Source of the DNA: Candidatus Altimarinota bacterium
GTDB taxonomy: Bacteria; Patescibacteriota; Gracilibacteria; GCA-2401425; JAJOLG01
NCBI GenBank assembly: GCA_021129445.1
Contig: JAJOLG010000041.1
Span: 1 to 13,630 of the forward strand
DNA length: 13,630 nt
Reading direction: 5' to 3'
The stretch's first letter is position 1. Each line of letters begins with the position of its first letter. This document shows, piece after piece, positions 309 to 13,380 of this stretch. The notes below the pieces were generated by a model that saw only the letters and a list, made by a program, of their open reading frames with translations, made no database searches and was not told where the DNA came from. The translations under genes and the position numbers were made by a program.

Positions 309-1432
309 TTACCTAAATAATTTTACATAATTCTCAAATACAAAAATTTTATGTCTTTTAAATCAAGTAACTTCATTTAAAACTCAATTTTCAATAAGTA
401 ATTTTATTAAACTATTTACTATTGCAGGTGCAGCTCATAAAACTAAAACTAATTCTTTACTTGAAACTATAGGTTTTGAATAAAGGTATTTCATAATTTT
501 ATTTATGTTTTCAGACTTGGATCAAAATCATAAAATTTTTTCATCAATATCTTTTTTTAATCTAATTATTTCGCTAAAAGTATTTAATGAGGACTTACAA
601 GTTTCAATAATTCAAGTTAAGAAGAATTTTATAAAATGATTTATATCGTTAGAATCTCTGGCGACAGTTAAAGCGTCATAATAAGCTCATCTATTTCTTT
701 CAAAAAAATCTGAAATATATAAAACTGGTTTTGAAATTATTCTTTTTTCTATTAAATAAAGAATAATCATAAGTCTTCAAATTCTTCAATTTCAATCTAA
801 ATAAGGATGAATTGTTTCAAACTGATAATGGGCAATTGCAATTTTTATAAGTTCTGGAATTTCTAAATAATCATTGTGTAAAAAATTTTCAAAATCACTT
901 ATTAAATCAGATAAATCATCTTTATGAGGTGGAATAAAAAAAGCATTTTTTAAACTTGTTCATCAAATCCAATTTTGACTTCTTCTAATATCTCAAGGAT
1001 TTTTATTCTTTCATCTAGCTCAATCTAAAAGAATTTTATGAATTTGTGAAAATAATCTAAAAGATAATGGTGTATTCTTTAACTCTTTTATTCAAAAATT
1101 TAAAGATTTAATATAATTTTGAACTTCAATTGTATCATTTTTTTCTTCAATTGTTTTTTCAAAATCTTCAATAAATAAATCATCAAATTCTGTTTTTGTT
1201 CATTCTATTTTACTAGATTTTATAGCTTCTTTTCAAATATGCATTGAAATAAAAAAATCAATATCTGGAAGAAAACTAGAAAAACTTTCCAGTTTTCAAA
1301 GCTCTAAATTAGCTTTTTCTAGTAAAATATTATTTTTTTATCATCCCAAAAAAAATCAGTATTTATCAAAGATGGTAAAAAACTTTTATACTCAAGTTGT
1401 TCTTTCCAGATTCATGATTTAAATTTTTGCAT
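309..1432 (-). pseudogene. Fic-domain protein AMP-transferase, frameshifted near the 5' end
   Basis: Fic proteins transfer AMP (or related groups) from a nucleotide to Ser/Thr/Tyr hydroxyls of target proteins. The core motif HPYLDGNGRIGR (His about residue 209 of the repaired product) matches HxFx(D/E)GNGRxxR, with both motif glycines encoded by TGA. Upstream, SSKIEG fits the (S/T)xxxE(G/N) inhibitory helix of class II Fic proteins. The N-terminus (EYKSFLPSLI) and C-terminus (KIFVFENYVKLF) also resemble standalone Fic proteins. From the ATG at 1432 the frame runs about 33 codons, through FFWDDKK, and then hits TAG. The family sequence resumes (ILLEKANLELGKL) in another frame at a 7-nt A run (1333-1339). 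One added base would restore a 374-aa protein. Otherwise the first in-frame ATG is at 1244, giving 311 aa without the N-terminal part. The cause may be mutation, slippage or a sequencing error. Restriction remnants lie upstream. Confidence 0.88.
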
Positions 1433-1434
1433 TT

Positions 1435-1605
1435 TTTTAAATTATATTTTTTATATTTTAATTATTCTTATATATTTAAAATATACAAGTTTATATTTTA
1501 ATTTTTCCAATTTTTTTAAAATATAAACATTCTTATTTTAATTTTTCGCTAAAATTTAAAATATAATATTTTATAATTTAAATTTTGGTGTCTTTTTAAA
1601 ATATA
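1435..1605. repeat. Degenerate 40-bp periodic array upstream of fic
   Basis: TTTAAAATATA occurs exactly at 1475, 1515, 1555 and 1595, always 40 bp apart, with a weaker fifth unit at 1435. About 18 bp into each of the first units is a partly inverse element, TATTTTAATTTTT. In the unit at 1475 the two form a perfect 10-bp inverted repeat (TTAAAATATA, 6-nt spacer, TATATTTTAA). Similarity decays through the units, and the last copy overlaps the reading frame of the hsdR remnant. The array lies directly before the fic start codon. It could be an operator array, since 40 bp is close to four helical turns, or a diverged minisatellite. The conserved core is too short and degenerate for a CRISPR repeat. 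Confidence 0.6.
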
Positions 1606-1800
1606 AATTGTAAAAAAATCTTTTCACTTAAAAACTCTCGTTTATCTTCAAACAATTTGTTTATATTCAACAATACTTCAAATATTTCTATCAAGAATAA
1701 TATTTCTCACATTTAATGTATCAACTCAAGTTGTAAGTATTTTAGAACTTGTTAAAATTACAGGAATATCTTTATCATTATCTTGGAATTTTTCTAAAAA
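1588..1800 (-). pseudogene. Remnant of type I restriction enzyme R subunit (HsdR) helicase domain
   Basis: A frame different from that of the overlapping dipeptidase end encodes DIPVILTSSKILTTGVD, then NIILDRNIGSIVEYKQIVGR. These match helicase motifs V and VI of HsdR-type superfamily 2 translocases (family pattern: LLTTGVD, a short spacer, efkQiiGRGTR). Where GRGTR is expected, the glycine codon is TAA (1642-1644). After this stop the same frame continues with family-like TRVFKGKDFFTIYILK. So this is a roughly 70-residue fragment of a protein normally around 800-1000 residues, without Walker A, DEAD box or nuclease. It is squeezed between the dipeptidase gene and the 40-bp array. A TGA-to-TAA or GGA-to-TAA change would explain the nonsense codon. 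A related DEAD-box helicase is the alternative source. Confidence 0.72.
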
Positions 1801-2576
1801 TCCACAGGCCCATACAAATACTCATTTTTTCAATAAAACTTCGCCCAATACGAATCTCAATATGCAAAATGCCACCACTCCGACGGTAAATTTGAAAACC
1901 CAAAACTCAACATTGTATCTGTTAAAAATTCGCGATTTTTCCTTTGTTTATCAGTAATTTTTGAAGTAAATAAACAGGAAATTTCTCACGGATAATTTAT
2001 CGGCGAACCCATATCAACATATCTTCAATCCGCATGAAATAAGTCTAAATCCACTGCTCATCAAGTTGTATGCGGTGAAATATATCTATTTGGATCGGAA
2101 ATAAACTCAATTGTTTTTTCATAAATCTGATCTTCCGGCAAATCAGAATTTTTAGATTTCATAAATTCAAAAATTTTTTCAAATAATTTTTTCTGAACTT
2201 CAAGCGGTCTGTATCAAATTTTTAGAACCAAATAAAATCATTTTGATTTAAAAAATTTATCAATTTCCAAAATTTTTTCTGCAACACTTTTTCTCAAAAA
2301 AATTCAAAAATCAGGATTTTTTTCCAAATACTTTTGCATTTCAACATTTTCCAAATTTATAATTTCATCAATATCTTTATTTCAAGTAAAAATAATTTCA
2401 TCATGCCAAAATTCCTGAATTGCAATTTCTGATTTTGTCACTTTCACCATTTCCTCATTTTTCGTTTTTTCAGAAACTTTTAAATCCGTGTAAATATCAT
2501 TATGAATGTAAAAAAATTTTTTTACATCAAGTGGAATGTTTGCAAAATCAACATCAAAATTTATAATATTTTTCAT
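1794..2576 (-). CDS. VanX/DdpX-type D-alanyl-D-alanine dipeptidase (peptidase M15)
   Basis: This is a 260-aa zinc dipeptidase expected to cleave D-Ala-D-Ala, a peptidoglycan precursor or turnover product. The signature is clear: GYRP at 121-124 (substrate-binding Arg), SPHTTGGAVD at 167-176 (zinc ligands H169 and D176), and EWWH at 233-236 (catalytic Glu233, zinc ligand His236). Several glycines, including both in TTGG, are encoded by TGA. I see no signal peptide, so it is probably cytoplasmic. VanX and DdpX are about 190-205 aa, so the N-terminal 60-70 residues are an extension. It starts 3 nt after the 548-aa gene and is probably co-transcribed. In the absence of vanH/vanA-like genes, resistance is less likely than recycling or use of cell-wall dipeptide from itself or a host. 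It ends in TAG, while most genes here end in TAA. Confidence 0.9.
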
Positions 2577-2579
2577 AAA

Positions 2580-4226
2580 TTATTTTAAAATTTTTTCTAA
2601 CTTAAATGAATAAAAAAGTAAATTCAAAAAATTTTCTAAATTTTTCTCATCTGCAAATTTTTTTTTCATATCAAAAAATTTTTTATCAATTCAATCAGAA
2701 ATTCTTATTCAATCAATTTTATTCAATCTTTCTTCAATATTTTGAAAAATATTATCAAAAGAATTTACAAATTTTTCTTCATTAAATTCTGGGATTTTTA
2801 AATTATTTTGCAAAAAATTTGCAGTCTGATCTTTTGCAAAATCTCATCAAATTATCTGCATTTTAAACATATCATCAGGGATTGACCCAGACGACCCAGC
2901 CAAATTTTTTCAATCATTATCTCAATTTTCATCAAAAGTATCAAAAATTCACAATCACAAAATTACATTTTTAACATAATTTTGTACAGCCTCTGTATTT
3001 TTTCATTTTTTTTCAAAAAATTTTTCAACAGACTCTGCCGCTAATTCACGATATCATCTTTCTGATCAAATATGCAAACTTCATCAAATTCACATCAAAA
3101 AAATTGACATATTTCAAGACAAATTGTAATTCTCACAATTTCAAGATAACAAAGAAAATCATTCGTTTTTCTCAATTTTTTCAGGATTTTTCATTTTTCA
3201 TTTATAAAAAACAATTTCTCAATTTTCTTTGTAAACAAACAAATCTTTTTTTATTCAATTTTCTTGAAAATCCATTATTTTTACAGGTCTTCATCACGAT
3301 TTTTCCAAATTTTTTTCAAAAAATTCTTCAAAAAAACCTTCTCATAAATTTTCATCTTCTAAAATTTTTTTCACAGATTCAGAAAATTTTTTTATAGTTT
3401 CTAAATTTTTATATGAATTTTGAAAATTTATTTTTCAATTATTTAAAATTTTTTTCTCTTCCAAAATATCTTTTTTCTCTCAAAAATTTTTTGAAATAAA
3501 AATACTCAAAACTGAATTTTGAAATTCTCAAAACATTTCAGGCTCAGAAAATCAATTTAAATATTTTTTCTGCATTAAATTTCTTTGAAAATTCTTTTTA
3601 ATTTCAATTGAATTTGATAAAATTTTCTCCCTGAACAAAAAAGAAATTATTTTATTTTCTAAATTTCTCTCCTGCTCTGGAAAATTTTTTATTTGCTCAG
3701 AAAATTTTTCATAAACTCATAATTCCTGTAAAATATTTTTAAAAAACTCCAAAATTTTTTGATTAAAAACATTTTTTTCAAGAGCGGAAACATATAAAAA
3801 TTCATCAAAAATTTCATTTGCAAGTTTTATTTTTTCTTTTACAGAAAAATTTTTTACAGAATTTCATTTTTCCAAAATTAAAAAAAATAAATTTTTTCAT
3901 CAATTTTTTTTTGATAATTTAACATTTGGAAAACCTTTTATTCATCATCAATTCATAATATCCAAATAATCAATTGTGATATTTGAATCTATTCAATCTG
4001 CAATTTCAGCCTGATTTACAAGCGAACTCACACGATATGATCAAATTCAAAATTCGTCAGGATGAAAACAAGAATTTATAAATTCTCATCACAAAATTTC
4101 ATTAACTTGATTTAATCAATCAAGTTGTAGTTCTTGAATTCCTTTTTTAATTCAAGGATTAACATCTTCTCAAAAATTTTCCTTTAATTTTTTAACAATA
4201 TTTTCATTATTTTCCAAAATTTTCAT
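2580..4226 (-). CDS. Hypothetical protein, 548 aa, first gene of a unit with the dipeptidase
   Basis: I do not recognise a family. Read with TGA as glycine, the frame is open for 549 codons. The product is Lys/Glu/Asn/Phe-rich with no signal peptide or convincing membrane segment. The N-terminal 100 residues contain HPDEFGIGSYRVSSLV and a Gly-rich turn (MNGGGIKGFP). The middle is long, charged and helical-looking. The C-terminal third holds a better-conserved-looking block (IFLMGIGGSLHIGSERG, then YRELAAESVEKFF) and ends with another helical stretch. Around 3245-3304 a different frame, bounded by an A6 and an A7 run, gives a more natural sequence (GGRPVKIMDFQENG with TGA glycines) than the continuous frame does. 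That hints at two compensating homopolymer indels. The start at 4226 is the first ATG that gives this frame. Tight coupling to the dipeptidase suggests a shared envelope-related role, but this is inference only. Confidence 0.75.
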
Positions 4227-4245
4227 ATTTCATAAATTATTTTAT

Positions 4246-4330
4246 AAAAATAAAAAACTCCGCATTGCAGAGTTAATTTTAACTTTTTTTATTTTTTTAC
4301 AAAAAAATTAACCCTGCTTTTTCGGAGTTT
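4246..4330 (-). terminator. Leader hairpin with U-tract, attenuator-like
   Basis: On the minus strand an outer 8-bp stem (AAACTCCG with CGGAGTTT, 4323-4330 and 4255-4262) encloses short internal loops and a 14-bp inner stem (GCAGGGTTAATTTT with AAAATTAACTCTGC, 4304-4317 and 4267-4280). The one non-Watson-Crick pair is G-U in minus-strand RNA but A-C in plus-strand RNA, favouring function on the minus transcript. The 3' arm runs into TTTTTTATTTTT, as in intrinsic terminators. It ends about 20 nt before the start codon at 4226, so it sits in the leader of the 548-aa gene and could attenuate it. Confidence 0.6.
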
Positions 4331-4421
4331 GTAAATGCATCAGCCAAATATTTTTTATAAAATTTTTCATTGAGTAATTTTTAAAGATTTTTTTAAAAAT
4401 GTCAAAATAAAAAAAACTATT

Positions 4422-4441
4422 TTATCCACATTTTTTCCACA
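4422..4441 (+). promoter_or_regulatory. Two adjacent DnaA-box-like sites
   Basis: TTATCCACA (4422-4430), an exact consensus, is followed after 2 bp by TTTTCCACA (4433-4441), one mismatch away. The start-to-start distance is 11 bp, about one helical turn, which would place both on the same DNA face. They lie in the divergent region between the 548-aa gene and ftsA. They could be part of a replication origin or a DnaA control point for ftsA. Confidence 0.5.
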
Positions 4442-4534
4442 ATCACCAATACAATACTCTTTATTTATCAATTTTTTACCTGAGTAAAAAATGTGTACAA
4501 CCTTTTATTTAAGCTAAAAAACTCAAAAAAAAAC

Positions 4535-4563
4535 TTGCGTTATTTTTTTTACTTTTCTATTTT
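4535..4563 (+). promoter_or_regulatory. Candidate sigma70-type promoter of ftsA
   Basis: TTGCGT (4535-4540), a 17-bp spacer and TATTTT (4558-4563) form a reasonable -35/-10 pair, which would give a 5' leader of about 105 nt before ftsA. In such AT-rich DNA chance matches are common, so confidence is low. Confidence 0.3.
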
Positions 4564-4578
4564 TTAAAAAAGTTTTTT

Positions 4579-4587
4579 TGTGGAAAA
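4579..4587 (-). promoter_or_regulatory. DnaA-box-like site near the ftsA promoter
   Basis: The minus strand reads TTTTCCACA, one mismatch from the DnaA consensus and identical to the site at 4433-4441 but inverted. It lies just downstream of the candidate ftsA promoter, where binding could influence ftsA transcription. Confidence 0.3.
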
Positions 4588-4675
4588 CTCGAAAAAATTT
4601 TTTCAAAAAATAAAAATAAATACAAAAAAATTATTAAAAACAAGAAAAAAAATTCTTAAATAATTTTTTAAATAC

Positions 4676-5914
4676 ATGTCAAAAGACCACATAATCGCAG
4701 GGATAGATATTTGAAGCTATAAAATCAGAACAATTATTTGAGTAATTGATGAAGGTAGACCAACTCCACACATTATTTGAACAGGTGTTGTTTTTTCAAA
4801 TTGAATCAGAAAATGAAAAATTGTTGACTTAAAGGAGCTTGTAGATAACATAAATGCTTCACTTGAAGAAGCAGAAACCGTTTCTTGAATACCGGTTCAA
4901 CAAGCATTTATTTCAATTTCAAATAGTCAAATTGCAAGTTTTGAATCAAAATGAGTAATTGCAATTTCCTGAAATGAAATTACAGAAGAAGACCTTCAAA
5001 GGGCTTTGGAATCTGCAAAAAATACAACTCCAATTGAACCATGAATCGAAGTTATTGATGTAATTGCAAAAAATTATTTTATAGATAATTGATCAGCAAT
5101 TACAAACCCGGTTTGACTTTCTTGAACTAGACTTGAAGCATTTGCTGAAATTATTACTTGAACTGAATCTGCACTTCAAAATATCAAAAAATCAATAAAT
5201 CAAGTTTGAGTTGAAATTGTAAAAATGGTTCCAGCAACAATCGCAAGCAATACTGCGGTTTTGACAAAAAAACAAAAAGAAATTTGAGTTGTAAATATTG
5301 ATATTTGATCATCTTCAACTTGAATTTCTGTTTATGAAGAATGAGTTTTGCTTTATTCTTGATGAATTCCAGTTTGATGAGAAAATGTGACAAACGATAT
5401 TGCAATTTGAACAAGATCTTCAATTGAAACTGCTGAGAAGCTAAAAATTGAATTTTGAGATTTAATTTCAACAAATCTAAGAGAAGAAATTGATTTAGCA
5501 CAACTTTCTGAGGTTGACAGCTGAAAAATTTCAAAAAAACATTTAAATGAAATAATCAGGGCAAGATACGAAGAAATTTTTACAATGGTAAATCATGAGT
5601 TAAAAACAATCTGAAAAGATTGAATGTTACCTTGATGAATTGTAATTACTTGATGATGAGCAAAAATTGAATGACTTGAAGAAATTTGTAAAAATATCAT
5701 GAATTTACCAGCACAAATTTGATTTCCATGCGAAATTACAACTGTTGTTGATAAAATAAATGACCCAGAATATGCAACTGCTGTTTGATTGATAAAATAT
5801 TGATCAGAATTTTGAGAATGATGATGAGGATTTGATTTTTGAAATGTTTTATGATGATTTTCAGGATTTTGAGAATGAATTTGAAAATGGTTGAAATCTT
5901 TGTTGCCGAGTTAA
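4676..5914 (+). CDS. ftsA: Cell division protein FtsA
   Basis: This is a 412-aa actin-like ATPase that tethers FtsZ to the membrane and recruits the divisome. The N-terminal phosphate-1 motif is GIDIGSYKIRT (9-19). The 1C-region motif NPVGLSGTRLEA (144-155) matches the NPIGLSGVRLE pattern of FtsA. The phosphate-2 motif is NIDIGSSSTGISVYEEG (207-223), and the adenosine-binding motif is GIVITGGGAKIEGL (321-334). After a Gly-rich linker (about 379-399) it ends with a short amphipathic helix GIGKWLKSLLPS, the expected membrane-targeting sequence. Length is normal for the family. Nearly all glycines are TGA; the GGG at residue 9 is one exception. The ATG at 4676 puts the first ATPase motif at the usual distance; no Shine-Dalgarno precedes it. 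ftsZ follows after 159 nt. Confidence 0.97.
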
Positions 5915-5999
5915 AAATTTTATTAAAAAAATAAATATCGTTTAAGAATTTAAAAATATAGATTTTTATATGAAATAAAAGACAAAGACATGTTAATAT

Positions 6000-6040
6000 A
6001 TTTTTATAAAGCGGATTCGAGATGAAGTATTTATAAAAAT
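6000..6040 (+). other. Hairpin in the ftsA-ftsZ intergenic region
   Basis: The 159-nt gap between ftsA and ftsZ contains an 11-bp A/T-only inverted repeat (ATTTTTATAAA at 6000-6010, TTTATAAAAAT at 6030-6040). It encloses a 19-nt loop that is the only GC-richer part of the gap (GCGGATTCGAGATGAAG). There is no U-tract directly after it, so it is not a typical terminator. It could be a processing or stability element, or a protein site setting FtsZ level relative to FtsA. The rest of the gap is A/T-rich with no other signal I can support. Confidence 0.4.
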
Positions 6041-6073
6041 TAAATAAATAAACAATAAATTAATAAATAAACT

Positions 6074-7213
6074 ATGGCTGATCTACTAAAAGAAATGATG
6101 AATAAAAAATCATGAGCAAAAACAACAAATTGACCAACACAAGTTACACCATGAATAGCTCCAAATGCAAACATTAAGGTTGTTTGAGTTTGATGAGCTT
6201 GATGAAATGCATTAAATAGAATGGTTGTTGCATGAGTTGATTGAGTGCAATTTATTGCGATGAATACTGATGCACAAGCACTTACTTCTTCACAAGCTGA
6301 GAAAAAAATTGCAATCTGAAAAGCTGCAACAAGATGACTTTGAGCTTGATGAAATCCAGAAGCATGAAAAACTGCTGCTGAGGAATCAAGAGAAGAAATT
6401 AAAAGTGCACTTGATTGAGCAGATATGATTTTTATTACTTGTGGTTTGTGATGATGAACTTGAACATGAGCTGCACCAGTAGTTGCAGAAATCGCAAAAG
6501 AAATGTGAATTTTAACAATTTGAGTTGTGACAAAACCATTTTCTTTCGAAGGTCAAAAAAGATGAAAACAAGCTGCTACATGATACGATGAGCTAAAATG
6601 AAATGTTGATACACTTATCACAGTTCCAAATGACAGAATTTTATCAATTATTGATAAACAAACACCACTTACAGAAGCTTTTATGGTAATTGATGATGTT
6701 TTAAGACAAGGTATCGCATGAGTTTCCGAGGTTATTACTTGAAACTGATTGATAAATGTGGATTTCGCAGATGTTAAATCTGTAATGCAAAATGCAGGTT
6801 CTGCTTTGATGTGAATTTGATACTGATCTTGAGAAAATAGAGCTGCCGATGCTGCAAGATGAGCAATCGATTCTCCTCTTTTAGAACTTTCAATTAATTG
6901 AGCAAAATGAGTTTTAATAAATGTGACTTGATGATCTGACCTTTCAATGTTTGAAGTTGATGAAGCTGCAAAAATCATCACAGAAGCCGTTGATCCAGAA
7001 GCAAATATTATTTTCTGAGCGGTTATTGATGAAAAATATTCTTGAGAATTAAAAGTTACAGTTGTTGCAACTTGATTCTCAGAAGAAACACAAAATATTG
7101 CAAAGCCAAAAGTTACTCCTGCAATGAAAAGAATGTGAATTTGAAGAAGAACTCCTCAAAATCAGCAAGACGATTTAGATGTTCCTGCTTTTATCAGGAA
7201 GGCAATTAAATAA
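6074..7213 (+). CDS. ftsZ: Cell division protein FtsZ
   Basis: This is a 379-aa tubulin-like GTPase that polymerises into the division ring. The N-terminal nucleotide-binding segment is KVVGVGGAGGNALNRM (35-50). The tubulin signature GGGTGTG is at 126-132, followed by AAPVVAEIA. The T7 synergy loop NVDFAD (228-233) supplies the catalytic Asp residues for the neighbouring subunit. After a short linker comes the conserved C-terminal peptide [13 protein letters not shown] (367-379), which binds FtsA. About 44 of 48 glycines are TGA and four are GGT; all five glycines of the signature motif are TGA. Length and domain order are normal apart from a short C-terminal linker. The ATG at 6074 is preceded by A/T-rich sequence without a Shine-Dalgarno. 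An intrinsic terminator follows 20 nt after the stop. Confidence 0.98.
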
Positions 7214-7232
7214 TCACACTAGTTTATTTCAA

Positions 7233-7265
7233 AAAAGACCTTAAATTTATTTAAGGTCTTTTAAA
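7233..7265 (+). terminator. Intrinsic terminator after ftsZ
   Basis: A 13-bp perfect stem (AAAAGACCTTAAA with TTTAAGGTCTTTT, 7233-7245 and 7250-7262) with a 4-nt loop starts 20 nt after the ftsZ stop, with A's before it and U's within the 3' arm. It separates the division genes from the envelope genes. Confidence 0.85.
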
Positions 7266-7317
7266 AATTTGCCTTTTTAAAAAAAATTTTTTGAATTTTG
7301 AAAAATAAAAAATCAAT

Positions 7318-7959
7318 ATGAATATTTTTCTTCAAATCAACCACGCAATATCAGAATTTTTAATCTGATTAGTTTTAACAAATAATGCACAAAATTTTGT
7401 AAAATTTTTTGCAGATTCGCCCATTTTTTTCCTACCATTTTTTTTTGTATTCTACTGGATTTATTACGAAAAATTTTATAAAACAGACAAAAAATTTTCT
7501 CAAAAAATAAAAAATTTTTTCTCCAAAAATGAAAAAATTTCAATCAAAGAAAAAAAAAATTGACTGCTTTTGATGGTTTATTCAATAATCTTTTGAGTTT
7601 CAATAAATTTAACAATCCAACTATTTTTCTTTTTCGATAGACCTGAACTTTTAATTACACCAATTTTACAACACATCCCAGATGCTTCATTTCCATCTGA
7701 CCACTCTACAGTATCATTTGCATTTTTATTCTGATTATTTTTCGCAGGATACAAAAAAATATTTTGGACATTTTTACCATTCGTTATCCTGATGAACACA
7801 GCAAGAATTGCCGGATGAGTGCACTGGTTTTTTGATATTTTAGCTTGAATAATTATTTGATTTTTTGTAGTTTTAACAATTTTTAAAAATAAAAATTCAA
7901 AAATTATTGCAAAATTAAATGATTTTTTTATAAATTTAGCAAAATTTTTTAAGCTTTAA
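7318..7959 (+). CDS. PAP2-family lipid phosphatase, BcrC-like (probable undecaprenyl-diphosphatase)
   Basis: This is a 213-aa polytopic membrane phosphatase, probably dephosphorylating undecaprenyl diphosphate to recycle the lipid carrier of wall and surface-glycan synthesis. The three PAP2 motifs are present: DRPEL (107-111; the distal Lys of KX6RP is Gln here), SFPSDHS (124-130, with the PSDH form seen in BcrC proteins), and RIAGGVHWFFDILAG (163-177), with the catalytic His in GVH and the Asp after it. Hydrophobic segments lie near 35-50, 81-106, 132-145, 148-160 and 174-187, with a basic loop at about 51-80. It lies 105 nt after ftsZ, behind a terminator, and leads a tight three-gene unit. 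PgpB-like phosphatidylglycerophosphatase activity is the alternative. Confidence 0.9.
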
Positions 7960-7962
7960 ATT

Positions 7963-8145
7963 ATGAAAAATACACTTTTTTGAATCGGTATTTTTATTAT
8001 CTGACTTGTAATCTGATTTTTTCTAGGAGTTGCAAAAAATTTCCAAATCAATGTTTGACTTGATAAAACACTTTGAAATTGAGTAAATTCAGTATTTGAA
8101 AACTATTTTAATGCACCACAAGAAATTTTTAATTTATTTAAATAA
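7963..8145 (+). CDS. Small membrane protein, 60 aa, unknown function
   Basis: I do not recognise a family. One N-terminal transmembrane helix (about residues 4-25, GIGIFIIGLVIGFFLGVA) has a small-residue pattern suited to helix packing. It is followed by a short soluble tail rich in Asn and Phe. Five of its glycines are TGA, so it would be missed under the standard code. It starts 3 nt after the phosphatase stop, and its TAA overlaps the next gene's ATG (TAATG), which implies co-transcription and perhaps translational coupling. A helper of the phosphatase or of the glycan polymerase/ligase is possible but inferred from position only. Confidence 0.7.
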
Positions 8146-9479
8146 TGCTTGAAAAAATTTTAAAAATCTCGATTTTTTCCTTTTTATTCACTGCAAGTTT
8201 TCAGTGAATAAATTTTTTTATTTGAACAGAAAATTCATTTTTTTCATGAAATTTTTCAAAATTTTCTTCAATAGTTTTCACACTTTCTGATATTTTTTTA
8301 TTTTTGAGTATTTTTTTATTTTTATTGATAATTTACAAGAAAAATTACATAAAAAAGAAAAAATTTTTTAATTTTTGAGAAAATTTTTTAGAAAATTTCT
8401 GAAACAAAAAACTAAATTTTTTATTCTTTTGACTTGTATTTTCCGCATTTTTAACATCATTTTTCATCCAAAATTTTGAAAATTTCCTTATTCATATTTC
8501 GATTTTATTAAAATTTTTTTGAGCCTGATTTTTAATTTTTTACATTCCAGAAAAAATTTTTTCTAAAAAAGAAATTTTGAACACACTTATTTTCTCCTTC
8601 TCAATCCAAAGTTTTATCGCATTTTATCAAGTTATTTTTCAAGCACCGGTTTGATTATTTTTCCTTTGAGAAAATAATTTTTGAGAAAATTTAAACGGAG
8701 TTGCAAAAATATGAGATTTTATTCGCTGATACTGAGCACTTTCTCATCCAAATATTTTATGATTATCTTCGCTAATTCTATACTTTTTAGCAAGAAAATC
8801 ATCTTTAAATTTTTTAAAAAATTTGATGATAATCTGAATTTTTTTCTCATTTTCCAAAACTGCAATAATTTGATTTTTCATCTTAAAATTTTACGAAAAA
8901 ATTTTTTTACACGAGGAAAAAAAATTTTTTGATTTAACAAATTTTTTCAATCCACAAAAAAAATTTTTTTACAATAAAATAAAAATTTTTTATACAATTT
9001 TTTATTCATCAATATTTTTCTCAATTTTTTTCTTCGTTTGAGATAAAATTTTAATGAGATTTCAAAATTTTTTTGGAATAGGTTTTCAAGAAAGAATTTT
9101 ACAATTTGAAATCGCTGAAAAAATTTTTGTAAAAAACTTGGAAAATTTTAATTTATTTTGAATTGGATTTTGAAATTTTACTCTACAAATGCAAAATTTT
9201 ACAGATAAAATTTTAAAACCTTGGGAATTTCAGCCAGTTCACAATTTTTTCATTTTATTTTGAACAGAAGTTGGAATTTTCGGATTAACAATTTTACTTT
9301 TTTTAATGTCATTTTTGTTTTTTAAATCAACAAAAAAACCTTCTGAAAAGATTTTTTTGCTTTTACTTTTATTTTTTTGAAGTTTTTTTGACCATTTTTT
9401 ATTAAGTTCTACAATTGGAATTATTTTATTTTGGACAATTTTAAAAAATTTTAATTTTTTTGCAAAAATTCCTTCATAA
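8145..9479 (+). CDS. O-antigen ligase/polymerase-like membrane protein (Wzy_C/WaaL superfamily)
   Basis: This is a 444-aa polytopic membrane protein, almost wholly hydrophobic and very Phe-rich, with roughly ten or more membrane segments. Two hallmarks of the Wzy/WaaL superfamily are visible: GYGALSHPNILG (195-206), and in the second half GIGFGNF (about 341-347) followed by QPVHNFFILFGTEVGIFGL (363-381). The latter corresponds to the family's conserved large periplasmic loop, with the VHN histidine, and the next helix. Such proteins polymerise or ligate lipid-linked glycans on the outer membrane face. This fits the upstream lipid-carrier phosphatase. The start codon overlaps the previous stop (TAATG). 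The 3' end overlaps the convergent helicase gene by 29 nt. The precise role (polymerase, ligase or protein O-glycosylation) cannot be told from sequence alone. Confidence 0.88.
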
Positions 9480-12400
9480 ACTCAAATTTCTTACTCATTT
9501 TTACTAAAATTTGATCAATATTTTCATCTCAAAATTCTTCAACTCAAATTTTACTTATTTCATCAACCTCATATTTCAAATCATCAATTTTATCCAATCA
9601 AACAAAACTTTCTCATAATATTTTCATTTTATGAAGTGGAAATTTTGAAATAAAATTCAAAAACTTTTCATCAAAATTTTTCATATTCAAAGAAGGAATT
9701 TTTCTCGCAAAATTCAGGATTTTACTTTTTTGAACCTCCAAATCTTCTTCATTAAAAAATTCATTTAAAAGTCAATAAACTGATTCATACAACCCATTTG
9801 CATTTTTTAAATTTGCAATTTCTGATTGAACCACCTCCTCTTCTTGAATTAAATTTTCAACTTTATTTTCTAAATTTTCAATATACTTTTTCAATTCATT
9901 TTTTAAATTCTCATCTCAAAAACTTAAAGACAAATGTTTAATTAAAACAAAAACTTTTTCTGCATCGTCAAAATTTCATAAAATTTTTGCAAATTTTTCT
10001 AAAATTTTCTCATCATTTTTATCTGAAATTTTTATTTTTTCTCAGTGAAAAACAATTCAAATAATCAAATTTGAAAGAAATTTTTCAGTAAAAACTACAT
10101 TTTCTTTTTTAGAAAAAACAATTTTTTCAAAATCAATTTTTTCAATTCTTTTTCTAAAATTTAAAACAAAAGACTCAAATCAAATAATTTTATTTTTTAA
10201 AATATGTAATTGATGCATTTTTGAATTATCATCCTTGATTTTTATTTTTTTATCAATCAAAGAAACAAAATCATTAAAAGATTTTTTTCAAGAATAAAAT
10301 TTATTTTTATTTACAAACAAAAGATTTTTCATTCATTTTTTAAATTTAATTTTTTGCTTTTCCGTAAAATCGCATTTTTCAAGCAAAAAATCAATTTTTT
10401 TTACCAGAGAAAATAATTTATTGGCTTTATTTAAAACATCTAATGTTTTAATAATTGGATCAGACAGCAACAACTCATCATTTTGATAAACTCACAAACA
10501 AAAATTACTAAAAGAAAATTTTCATGTTTCTTGTAAAGTTTTTAATTCATTTACAAATGATTTTGTTGAAGTTTTTTTCTTTATGCACTGCATTAACTCT
10601 GCATTTTTACTATCTAAATCTTCAAATTCCTGTTTAATTTTTAATTTAAAAATATTTCACTCTTTCGAATTTTTAATATTTTTCAAAAAAATAATCAATT
10701 TTGAATAATCAAATGAATTTTCTTCTAAAAATTTTATAATTTCATCAAAATTTTCTAAATTTATTTTTTCAATTTTTTCTTGATTTTCATCAAAAAAATC
10801 TACAATTTCTTTAATCTTTTTAGAAAATTCATTTGATTTTTTCACACTTTCAAAAAAATCATCTTTGTTAGAAAAATTATTTTCTTGATGGACAATAATC
10901 TCTTCTCAATTTAAAAATTTTTGAATCTCTTCATCAGAAGATTTAATAAAATTTTTAAGAATTTCATCATCTTCAATAAATTTTTTTACATTTTCATCCT
11001 TATTTTCAGGATTTATCTTTGGAGAAATTTTAATTGTTATTTTTTGTAAAAGTCTCACAAAAACATCTCTGTCATAATTTTCTCATAAAGTTTTTATAAA
11101 ATTTCAAACAAGCTGATTTTTTTCGATCAAAAAATATGGAAGCCAATTTGTTGCCAAATATTTTTGCTTTTCATCTTTATTTACAATAAATTTTGGAACT
11201 TCAAAAGTATCTCATGAAACATCAATCTGAAATTTTCTATTTTGTAAATCTGATTTTTTAGGAATATATTCAGAATACTCTTTTGACTGATAAAGTTCAA
11301 TATCTCATGGCTCTATTTGTGTCAAAAATGACAAAATATTTTTATCATCTTTATCTTCCAAATCTGCTCAAATAATAAAAGGTGTTCAGATATAAGCCAT
11401 TCCAAAATGAATATCCAAAAATGATCTATCACTATTTTCAAATTCCAATTTATTTTTTCAGAAAAAATCTTCAAATTTTTTACTTCAAACTGCTGAATAA
11501 ATATTGTGTAAATATCAAGAAAGCAAACTTTTTGAAATTTTTTCTTTTCTTTCTTTTTCTTCAAAATCACTATTTAAAGATTTTTGAAATTTTTCATTAT
11601 TTTCCAAATTTTTAAAAATTTTTTCAACTCTATTTCAAATAGAAATTAAACTTTTAAAACTCAATCAAATTTCTTCAATTTCCTCTCAAACAATATCAAT
11701 AAACCTTGCCTTTCAATCAAGCGATTTAAAATAATTTATCAATTTTCAATCAATTCACATATTTTGAAATGTTGCCAAAATATTATCATCTATTTTTGTC
11801 GAATATAAAATATCATAAATTTTTTTGTAAATATCCAAATCTGAGAAATTTTTATCAAAAAAATTAGCTTTAAATTTCTTAAAATTAAATTCTTTTTTCA
11901 CAAATCAATTTTCCTCAATAATCGAAGTCATTAAAATCACATCTTCTGCAACTCACAAATCAATTGCTTCCAAAATACACCTCGCATTAAATGCTCAAAT
12001 TGGCAGTTTTAAAGCATCAAATCATAATTTTGTAAGTTTTTCATTTTTTGTAATCAATCAAACCTCCTTCAAATTTTCATAAGATATTTGCAACTTTTCT
12101 CTATTTGGTTTGTAAATATAATTATTTACACCTCTTGTCTCATTACTTAAAATATTTTCTCAAAATAAAATTTCTGATAAAATTTTTCTTTCATCAACCT
12201 TAATTTCAACACTTGATTTTGACTCCAAATCAAGTTCTTTAAGTTTTTTTCATCAAGTGTAAATGGCAATTCCATCTTCTTTTCTTCAAGCTCTTCATCT
12301 ATTTTGCATGTATGCATCGTGACTTATCGCCTCCTTCATCAAAATTGGAATTCAATCTTCATTGAAATATTGATTTTTTTGCAATCAATCATCGATAACC

Positions 12401-13380
12401 GAATTTATATCAATTGTAATTCAAGTTCTTGCTGCATTTGTTGCCACAAAAATTTTTTGCCCATATGAATTTTTTAAATTTTCTTCCAAAACGGACTGAG
12501 AAACCTGTGAATGAAACTCAAAAACCTGAATATCGTTTCACAATTTTTCTTGTAATTGTTTTATTGTTTTTGCAATTTCTGCTTTTCACGGCTGGAAAAT
12601 CAAAATACTTTTTCATTTTTGATACAAATCAATAGCTTCATCGACAGCATTTTTTTCATTTTTTTCAAAATCTTTTATCGGAAAAGTTCTTCATTCAACT
12701 CTTAAAACTGGAACTTCTTTTGATAAAATTTTCATCCTGTCCAAAAGTAAATCAAGATAATTATCAGAAATTGTAGCTGATGCTCAATAAATTTTTACTC
12801 TATTTGGAAATTTTTTTGCTAATTTTAAAATTTTTGAAAAATAAAAAATAAAATCTTCTGATTTTTCATGAATTTCATCCAAAACAATATGAAGATTTTT
12901 TGTCGAAGACTGCAAAAATCTCTCAAAATTTCATAAACTCAAATTTAAATATTCAAGTCAATAAGTATGAAATCACAATTGAGTTCTTCATTTTTCAGAA
13001 TTTCATTTTCAAGTTCTGTATCAAACTCATCAATTTCAAAGTGCATAATAAGGATTTCAAGTTTTACAATACATTATTTTTGACACATAAGAAGCTGTTC
13101 ATATTGTCGCAGAAACAAGTGGAATATTGGTGATTACAATATCGTCTGGATAAACCTCATGAATCATTTGTGGCAACTCAGTTGTTTTTCACGACCCAGT
13201 TTCTCAAATTAAAACCGAACAAACTCATCATCTTATAACATCTTTGATTTCTTGCTCATATTTTCTAACAGGAACATCAAGAGAATTTGTAATAATTTCT
13301 TTTCTTTCCGGTTCTGTAATTATTTCTCAATCTGGTAAAATTAGGGAATAATTGTCTTCAATAGGAAAATTTTCTTTCAT
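9451..13380 (-). CDS. DEAH-box ATP-dependent helicase, HrpA/HrpB-like
   Basis: This is a 1309-aa superfamily 2 helicase of the DEAH/RHA group, probably acting on RNA or ribosome-bound mRNA. The motifs are in order: Walker A GETGSGKTT (59-67, followed by ELPQ as in HrpA), DEIH (168-171), SAT (201-203), TNAARTGITI (314-323, motif V) and QNRGRAGR (359-366, motif VI). A region resembling the winged-helix/ratchet domain follows at roughly 430-490 (FNARCILEAIDLG). Length is close to E. coli HrpA (about 1300 aa) and much longer than HrpB. Beyond about residue 500 the protein is mostly charged, Asn/Lys/Glu-rich and helical-looking; I cannot recognise the HrpA C-terminal domain there. The frame is open throughout with TGA as glycine. 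The ATG at 13380 lies 21 nt downstream of a good -10/-35 pair. The 3' end overlaps the convergent glycan gene. Confidence 0.92.

Follow-up and report, generated by a model that had tools for sequence, protein, structure and literature searches.

UGA as the dominant glycine codon of a patescibacterial genome outside the Absconditabacteria/Gracilibacteria clade, and its probable second origin

Reading of the stop codon UGA as glycine (genetic code 25) is already known with proteomic proof (PMC4032931). A 2026 review describes it as restricted to Gracilibacteria/JAEDAM01 and traces it to the last common ancestor of that group (PMC13293708), and a survey covering 42,109 genomes reported UGA=Gly only in JAEDAM01 (PMC13092985). 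In SR1, tRNA-Gly(UCA) is charged by glycyl-tRNA synthetase, GlyRS (Campbell et al. 2013, cited through PMC13293708). Here we describe a contig of 13,630 nucleotides from a Candidatus Altimarinota bacterium (assembly GCA_021129445.1, JAJOLG010000041.1; also contig C17), analyzed at its full length and referred to from this point on as the window, in which UGA is read as glycine in every long gene, FtsZ included. Its parent genome, G000 (672,893 bases in 77 contigs, 94.8% complete), resembles the bacteria of code 25 (SR1/Absconditabacteria and Gracilibacteria, GTDB JAEDAM01) in UGA=Gly, in UAA and UAG as stops, and in low GC content. Nevertheless, it lies outside their clade and very probably acquired its code independently.

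Other codon reassignments offer points of comparison. From code 4, in which UGA encodes Trp, G000 differs in having no UGA on conserved Trp. Family JAKLIH01 of the Patescibacteriota (PMC13092985) is, like G000, a separate UGA reassignment within Patescibacteria, but there UGA has become Trp rather than Gly, and the family belongs to another class. In Absconditabacteria, CGA and CGG are known to be translated as Trp (Shulgina and Eddy 2021, PMC8629427), a change that G000 appears to share in part. No second origin of UGA=Gly was found in the open-access literature, subscription papers and preprints being outside the scope of that search.

Glycine codons in the window and across the genome

The window has a GC content of 23.4%. 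Under translation table 11 its longest open reading frame (ORF) is 142 aa, antisense to ftsZ; table 25 yields nine long genes, all of which end in TAA or TAG. Glycine in these nine genes is encoded by TGA 261 times, GGT 12, GGA 14, GGG 8 and GGC 0, which puts TGA at 261 of 295 Gly codons (88.5%) against 34 GGN. FtsZ (6074-7213) alone has TGA at 44 of its 48 glycines, with GGT at the other four, in agreement with the counts given in an earlier note made from the letters of this DNA. That note had also placed TGA on invariant glycines of FtsZ, a helicase, and the Fic, VanX and FtsA proteins, a claim that holds codon by codon. To illustrate, the FtsZ stretch GLGGGTGTGA (6443-6472) is spelled GGT TTG TGA TGA TGA ACT TGA ACA TGA GCT, with TGA at all five Gly of the tubulin signature GGGTGTG (6449-6469), and GVGGAGGN (6185-6208) contains five TGA. 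The same is true at every Gly of GRAGR in the helicase (12306-12283), DGNGR in Fic (797-774), TTGGA in VanX (2072-2049) and TGGG in FtsA (5645-5662). The list needs one correction, as the helicase Walker A motif GETGSGKT (13206-13183) reads TGA GAA ACT GGG TCG TGA AAA ACA, where the middle Gly is GGG; the others are fully TGA. Pfam scores rise with TGA read as Gly rather than Trp in all seven proteins scanned both ways, as seen for Tubulin (167.5 vs 86.9 bits), FtsA (114.3 vs 49.8), FtsZ_C (126.7 vs 81.3), Helicase_C (43.6 vs none) and the VanX-like peptidase (PF01427, 65.1 vs 48.5).

Beyond the window, we sampled 17 contig stretches, chosen as carrying tRNA or marker hits. TGA makes up 80-91% of Gly codons in 16 of them, and about 86% over these 16 together with the window. 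The remaining one, C21, is GC-richer (30.7%) and uses the standard code, with 4 TGA vs 231 GGN; it is a binning contaminant, the sole foreign contig in the sample. Treating TGA as a sense codon raises the share of the sampled DNA that lies in ORFs of at least 150 aa from 1.2% (standard code) to 77%, and the sampled ORFs end in TAA (124) or TAG (17).

Two column tests identify the amino acid. In the first, X stood for every TGA when the proteins were aligned with standard-code relatives, which avoids the bias of writing Gly into the query. Over 213 TGA columns of FtsZ, seven ribosomal proteins and RpoB, the mean Gly frequency is 0.757; where a column is at least 90% conserved, the residue is Gly in 141 of 148 cases and Trp in none. 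In the second, 20 ribosomal and RNA-polymerase proteins were aligned with TGA as Gly, giving 269 alignable UGA columns, 172 of which are conserved in standard-code relatives; 165 are Gly and, again, none is Trp. TGG, by comparison, falls on Trp in 11 of 13 conserved columns of these 20 proteins. AGA columns show Arg at a frequency of 0.70, close to that of Gly over TGA, which implies that the clarity of the TGA signal is normal for a sense codon. UGA is thus confirmed as a sense codon for Gly in G000, with UAA and UAG as the sole stops. Re-calling genes with table 25 and aligning the products to their families, the check that the earlier note had proposed, therefore bears out its claim that UGA is Gly throughout, as do the Pfam scores and the sampled contigs. 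None of the observations it had named as telling against that claim appeared: neither TGA over Trp columns, nor TGA closing genes, nor an intact release factor 2 (RF2).

The description of UGA as the preferred, nearly exclusive Gly codon stands as well. The 20 core proteins of G000 contain 408 TGA vs 22 GGN (94.9% TGA), and in its RpoB 77 of 79 Gly codons are TGA. Among 18 genomes of known code 25 families, the highest TGA share over the same 20 core genes is 72%, as against 95% in G000, and several fall below 4%, which makes G000 the most complete UGA-Gly takeover among the genomes compared. The range within the code 25 clade is itself wide: G087, G105 and G111 (families f20 and f21), which sit inside it, have TGA at less than 4% of Gly codons, and G101, also of f21, has 71%. 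Within the class, in-frame TGA occurs in families f12, f15, f20 and f21, and named records with a TGA-rich FtsZ carry the labels Candidatus Gracilibacteria or Patescibacteria group.

Transfer RNAs, release factors and CGG codons

No tRNA-Gly(UCA) occurs among the 26 tRNAs found in the assembly, which also lacks tRNAs for Met, Glu, Leu(UAA), Arg(UCU) and Thr(UGU). An ARAGORN scan of the same stretches returned the identical 26, and the tRNA search was therefore sensitive. Likewise, a search with a 16-sequence alignment of release factor 1 (RF1) and RF2 found neither factor in the 77-contig assembly; GGQSVN is a frequent RF1 motif in this class. Of tRNA-Gly(UCA) and RF2, the subjects of the further check that the earlier note suggested, neither was found, but RF1 and several essential tRNAs are missing too. 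As RF1 and these tRNAs are mostly indispensable to any cell, the absence of tRNA-UCA and RF2 carries little weight; the assembly is incomplete in these regions. Among the tRNAs present is a second one with a CCA anticodon (G000:C8:1944-2019), with C1:G72, A73 and G37, unlike tRNA-Trp. Elsewhere, genome G016, rated 100% complete, has RF2 (G016:C15:39897-40226) and no RF1 that we could find; a code change there was considered and dropped, since TAG serves as a stop in that genome.

Only two of the genomes examined belong to the GTDB order of G000, namely G000 itself and G001, and G001 uses the standard code. Its RF1 and RF2 are intact, the latter with an SPF motif, and its tRNA set is ordinary, with no UCA or CCG anticodon among the loci read. 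The same core genes contain 0 TGA vs 284 GGN, and 7 of 76 ORFs end with TGA (about 9% of stops).

A second codon also merits attention. The window contains no CGG, and elsewhere in G000 the codon is scarce, with 29 occurrences in about 59,000 codons. In leucyl-tRNA synthetase (LeuRS; G000:C3, L061:11337-13832), a CGG lies on the Trp of SRQRYWG, which is Trp in all four of the PDB homologs shown, and of the four homologs shown for the CGG of PcrA/UvrD, three have Trp or Tyr at that position (W in PcrA, Y in UvrD). At the CGG of alanyl-tRNA synthetase, the PDB homolog shown has Asp, which makes this site uninformative. A tRNA(CCG) of G000 (G000:C5:3026-3102) has A1:U72 and G73, which are Trp identity elements, unlike the Arg tRNAs of G001, which carry A73. 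CGG is therefore probably Trp in G000, judging from this tRNA and few codon sites. CGA probably stays Arg, as it falls, at the one site available, in RecG, on an Arg of the closest PDB homolog. G000 would thus have CGG=Trp in common with Absconditabacteria and with some members of the code 25 clade more broadly, as indicated by its tRNA(CCG) and by the invariant LeuRS Trp, but differ from the Absconditabacteria pattern in that only CGG appears changed.

Phylogenetic placement and origin of the reassignment

From the code, the earlier note had placed the organism in Absconditabacteria or Gracilibacteria. Trees from three contigs (C4, C27 and C17) and the GTDB order oppose this. All trees were built within one class, with no outgroup from another class, and the class root was not inferred; support for the ribosomal tree is given as ultrafast bootstrap (UFBoot)/Shimodaira-Hasegawa-like approximate likelihood ratio test (SH-aLRT). 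The ribosomal genes L3-L4-L23-L2-S19-L22-S3 of C4, analyzed under LG+C20 and also run under LG+R4, unite G000 with G001 (99/96 under LG+C20). The pair then joins families f3 and f16 (100/98), all standard-code save G000, and the 18 code 25 genomes lie together on one side of a branch (99/99). The RpoB tree (C27) recovers the code 25 clade without G000 (97/94). The FtsZ tree (the window) pairs G000 with G001 (91/91) and gives the named code 25 FtsZ sequences a clade of their own (100/99). Combining 1880 columns leaves the topology as in the ribosomal tree, unchanged when every TGA is masked; with masking and Dayhoff-6 recoding, G000+G001 is retained at 94.2/96 and the code 25 clade at 97.6/99. 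Twenty proteins (4426 columns, TGA masked) give 100 for both groups under LG+G4 and C20. Forcing all UGA=Gly genomes into a single clade is rejected by the approximately unbiased (AU) test on the ribosomal genes (p=0.027), RpoB (p=0.018), the unmasked 1880 columns (p=0.00077) and the masked 4426 columns (p=0.0002). AT-richness should draw G000 toward the AT-rich code 25 genomes, so any composition bias works against the result seen. These results place G000 outside the Absconditabacteria/Gracilibacteria clade (JAEDAM01), with G001 among standard-code lineages; code 25 is then no guide to the placement of an organism. Mixed binning was considered as a cause and rejected, since the phylogenetic signal comes from the very core genes that are rich in TGA.

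Several points weigh on the other side. The FtsZ tree by itself resolves the pairing with G001 but not the deeper placement. In the TGA-masked 1880 columns the rejection of a single clade is borderline (AU p=0.048), and the 4426-column test ran under the simple LG+G4 model. When G001 is removed, the best tree still leaves G000 outside the code 25 clade but the AU test (p=0.108 and 0.125) does not reject their union. The argument therefore depends on G001 being the sister, a relationship that the GTDB classification also supports. Branches are long (G000 and G001 are 58% identical) and the trees have no outgroup of another class. Finally, the G000 assembly yielded neither release factors nor a tRNA that would read UGA.

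Taken together, the evidence makes it very probable that a second and independent change of UGA to Gly took place on the branch leading to G000 after its split from G001. The nesting of G000 among standard-code lineages requires either two gains, or one gain followed by about five reversions, and two gains are the simplest account because retention of a single gain in G000 would need those reversions. By analogy with SR1, the mechanism likely ran as follows: AT pressure would have made UGA stops rare, as they are in G001 (about 9% of stops), RF2 would have been lost, a tRNA-Gly(UCA) charged by the ordinary GlyRS would have been gained, and UGA would then have displaced GGN by mutational and translational takeover. 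We further consider it reasonably probable that both changes, UGA from stop to Gly and CGG from Arg to Trp, evolved convergently again outside Absconditabacteria/Gracilibacteria, with UGA nearly replacing GGN.

As a special case of this second takeover, the enabling tRNA-Gly(UCA) may have been imported from a code 25 bacterium or phage. We regard such an import as doubtful. Relatives with code 25 occur in the same class, and their phages have been described (PMC10746230); no tRNA-UCA from which its ancestry could be read was recovered from G000. If instead G000 were a divergent member or sister of the code 25 clade, its UGA=Gly would simply be inherited from a common ancestor. The shared reassignment, the similar AT-rich composition, the reports of CGG=Trp from that clade (PMC8629427) and the AU result without G001 are all compatible with such inheritance. 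We nevertheless find it unlikely, given that several data sets and treatments place G000 with G001 or among standard-code genomes, that all 18 code 25 genomes stay together without it, that their union is rejected (p from 0.0002 to 0.048) whenever G001 is included, and that its own GTDB order contains a standard-code genome. Very improbable, in turn, is a UGA=Gly ancestral to the whole class, with G000 as a relic and reversion to stop in the standard-code lineages: although the class root was not inferred, and the midpoint root falls beside family f12 in several trees, about five separate reversions would be needed around G000, each regaining RF2 and purging its UGA-Gly codons. The reading of UGA as Trp or some other amino acid, or of the in-frame TGAs as pseudogene stops, can be dismissed, since nothing was found to support it beyond code 4 being the commonest bacterial UGA change, and it conflicts with 165 conserved Gly columns and no conserved Trp over TGA, with far lower code 4 Pfam scores, with a TGG that already occupies Trp columns, and with TGA filling core genes genome-wide.

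If true, a second origin would give a lone event its replicate, and recurring steps (AT pressure, loss of RF2, origin of the tRNA, a linked CGG change) could then be compared, with the standard-code sister G001 representing the 'before' state. In pipelines offering only codes 4 and 11, the proteins of such lineages will come out wrongly translated.

Gene content of the window

The central part of the window encodes FtsA (4676-5914, plus strand; 412 aa, 46 TGA, 5 GGN) and FtsZ (plus strand; 379 aa), which score 347.7 bits against TIGR01174 and 428.8 bits against TIGR00065, both above the equivalog cut-offs. Downstream on the same strand are a PAP2-family phosphatase resembling undecaprenyl-diphosphatase (7318-7959; 7 TGA, 2 GGN), a small ORF of 60 aa (7963-8145; 6 TGA, 2 GGN) and an O-antigen ligase-like (Wzy_C) membrane protein (8145-9479; 22 TGA, 7 GGN), which reaches 27 bits against PF04932, below the cut-off, under code 25 and matches no family under code 4. 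A 1309-aa DEAH-box helicase of the HrpA/HrpB type follows on the minus strand (9451-13380; 66 TGA, 6 GGN). Upstream of ftsA, three genes lie on the minus strand. One encodes a 548-aa protein (2580-4226; 42 TGA, 5 GGN) with no match in Pfam or NCBIfam, and another a VanX-like D-Ala-D-Ala dipeptidase of peptidase family M15 (1794-2576; 10 TGA, 3 GGN), which ends in TAG. The third encodes a Fic/DOC family protein (309-1244; 311 aa, 18 TGA, 0 GGN), with 59.5 bits against PF02661 and 46.4 bits against PF13784. The fic frame is broken at its 5' end, and the N-terminal region runs on upstream (1245-1420) in another frame, through either decay or sequencing error.

Adjoining fic, also on the minus strand, is a fragment of a Helicase_C domain (1642-1878), possibly the relic of a restriction or defense gene. 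Between the two (1417-1607), an AT-rich and partly palindromic unit of 40 nt is directly repeated about four times.

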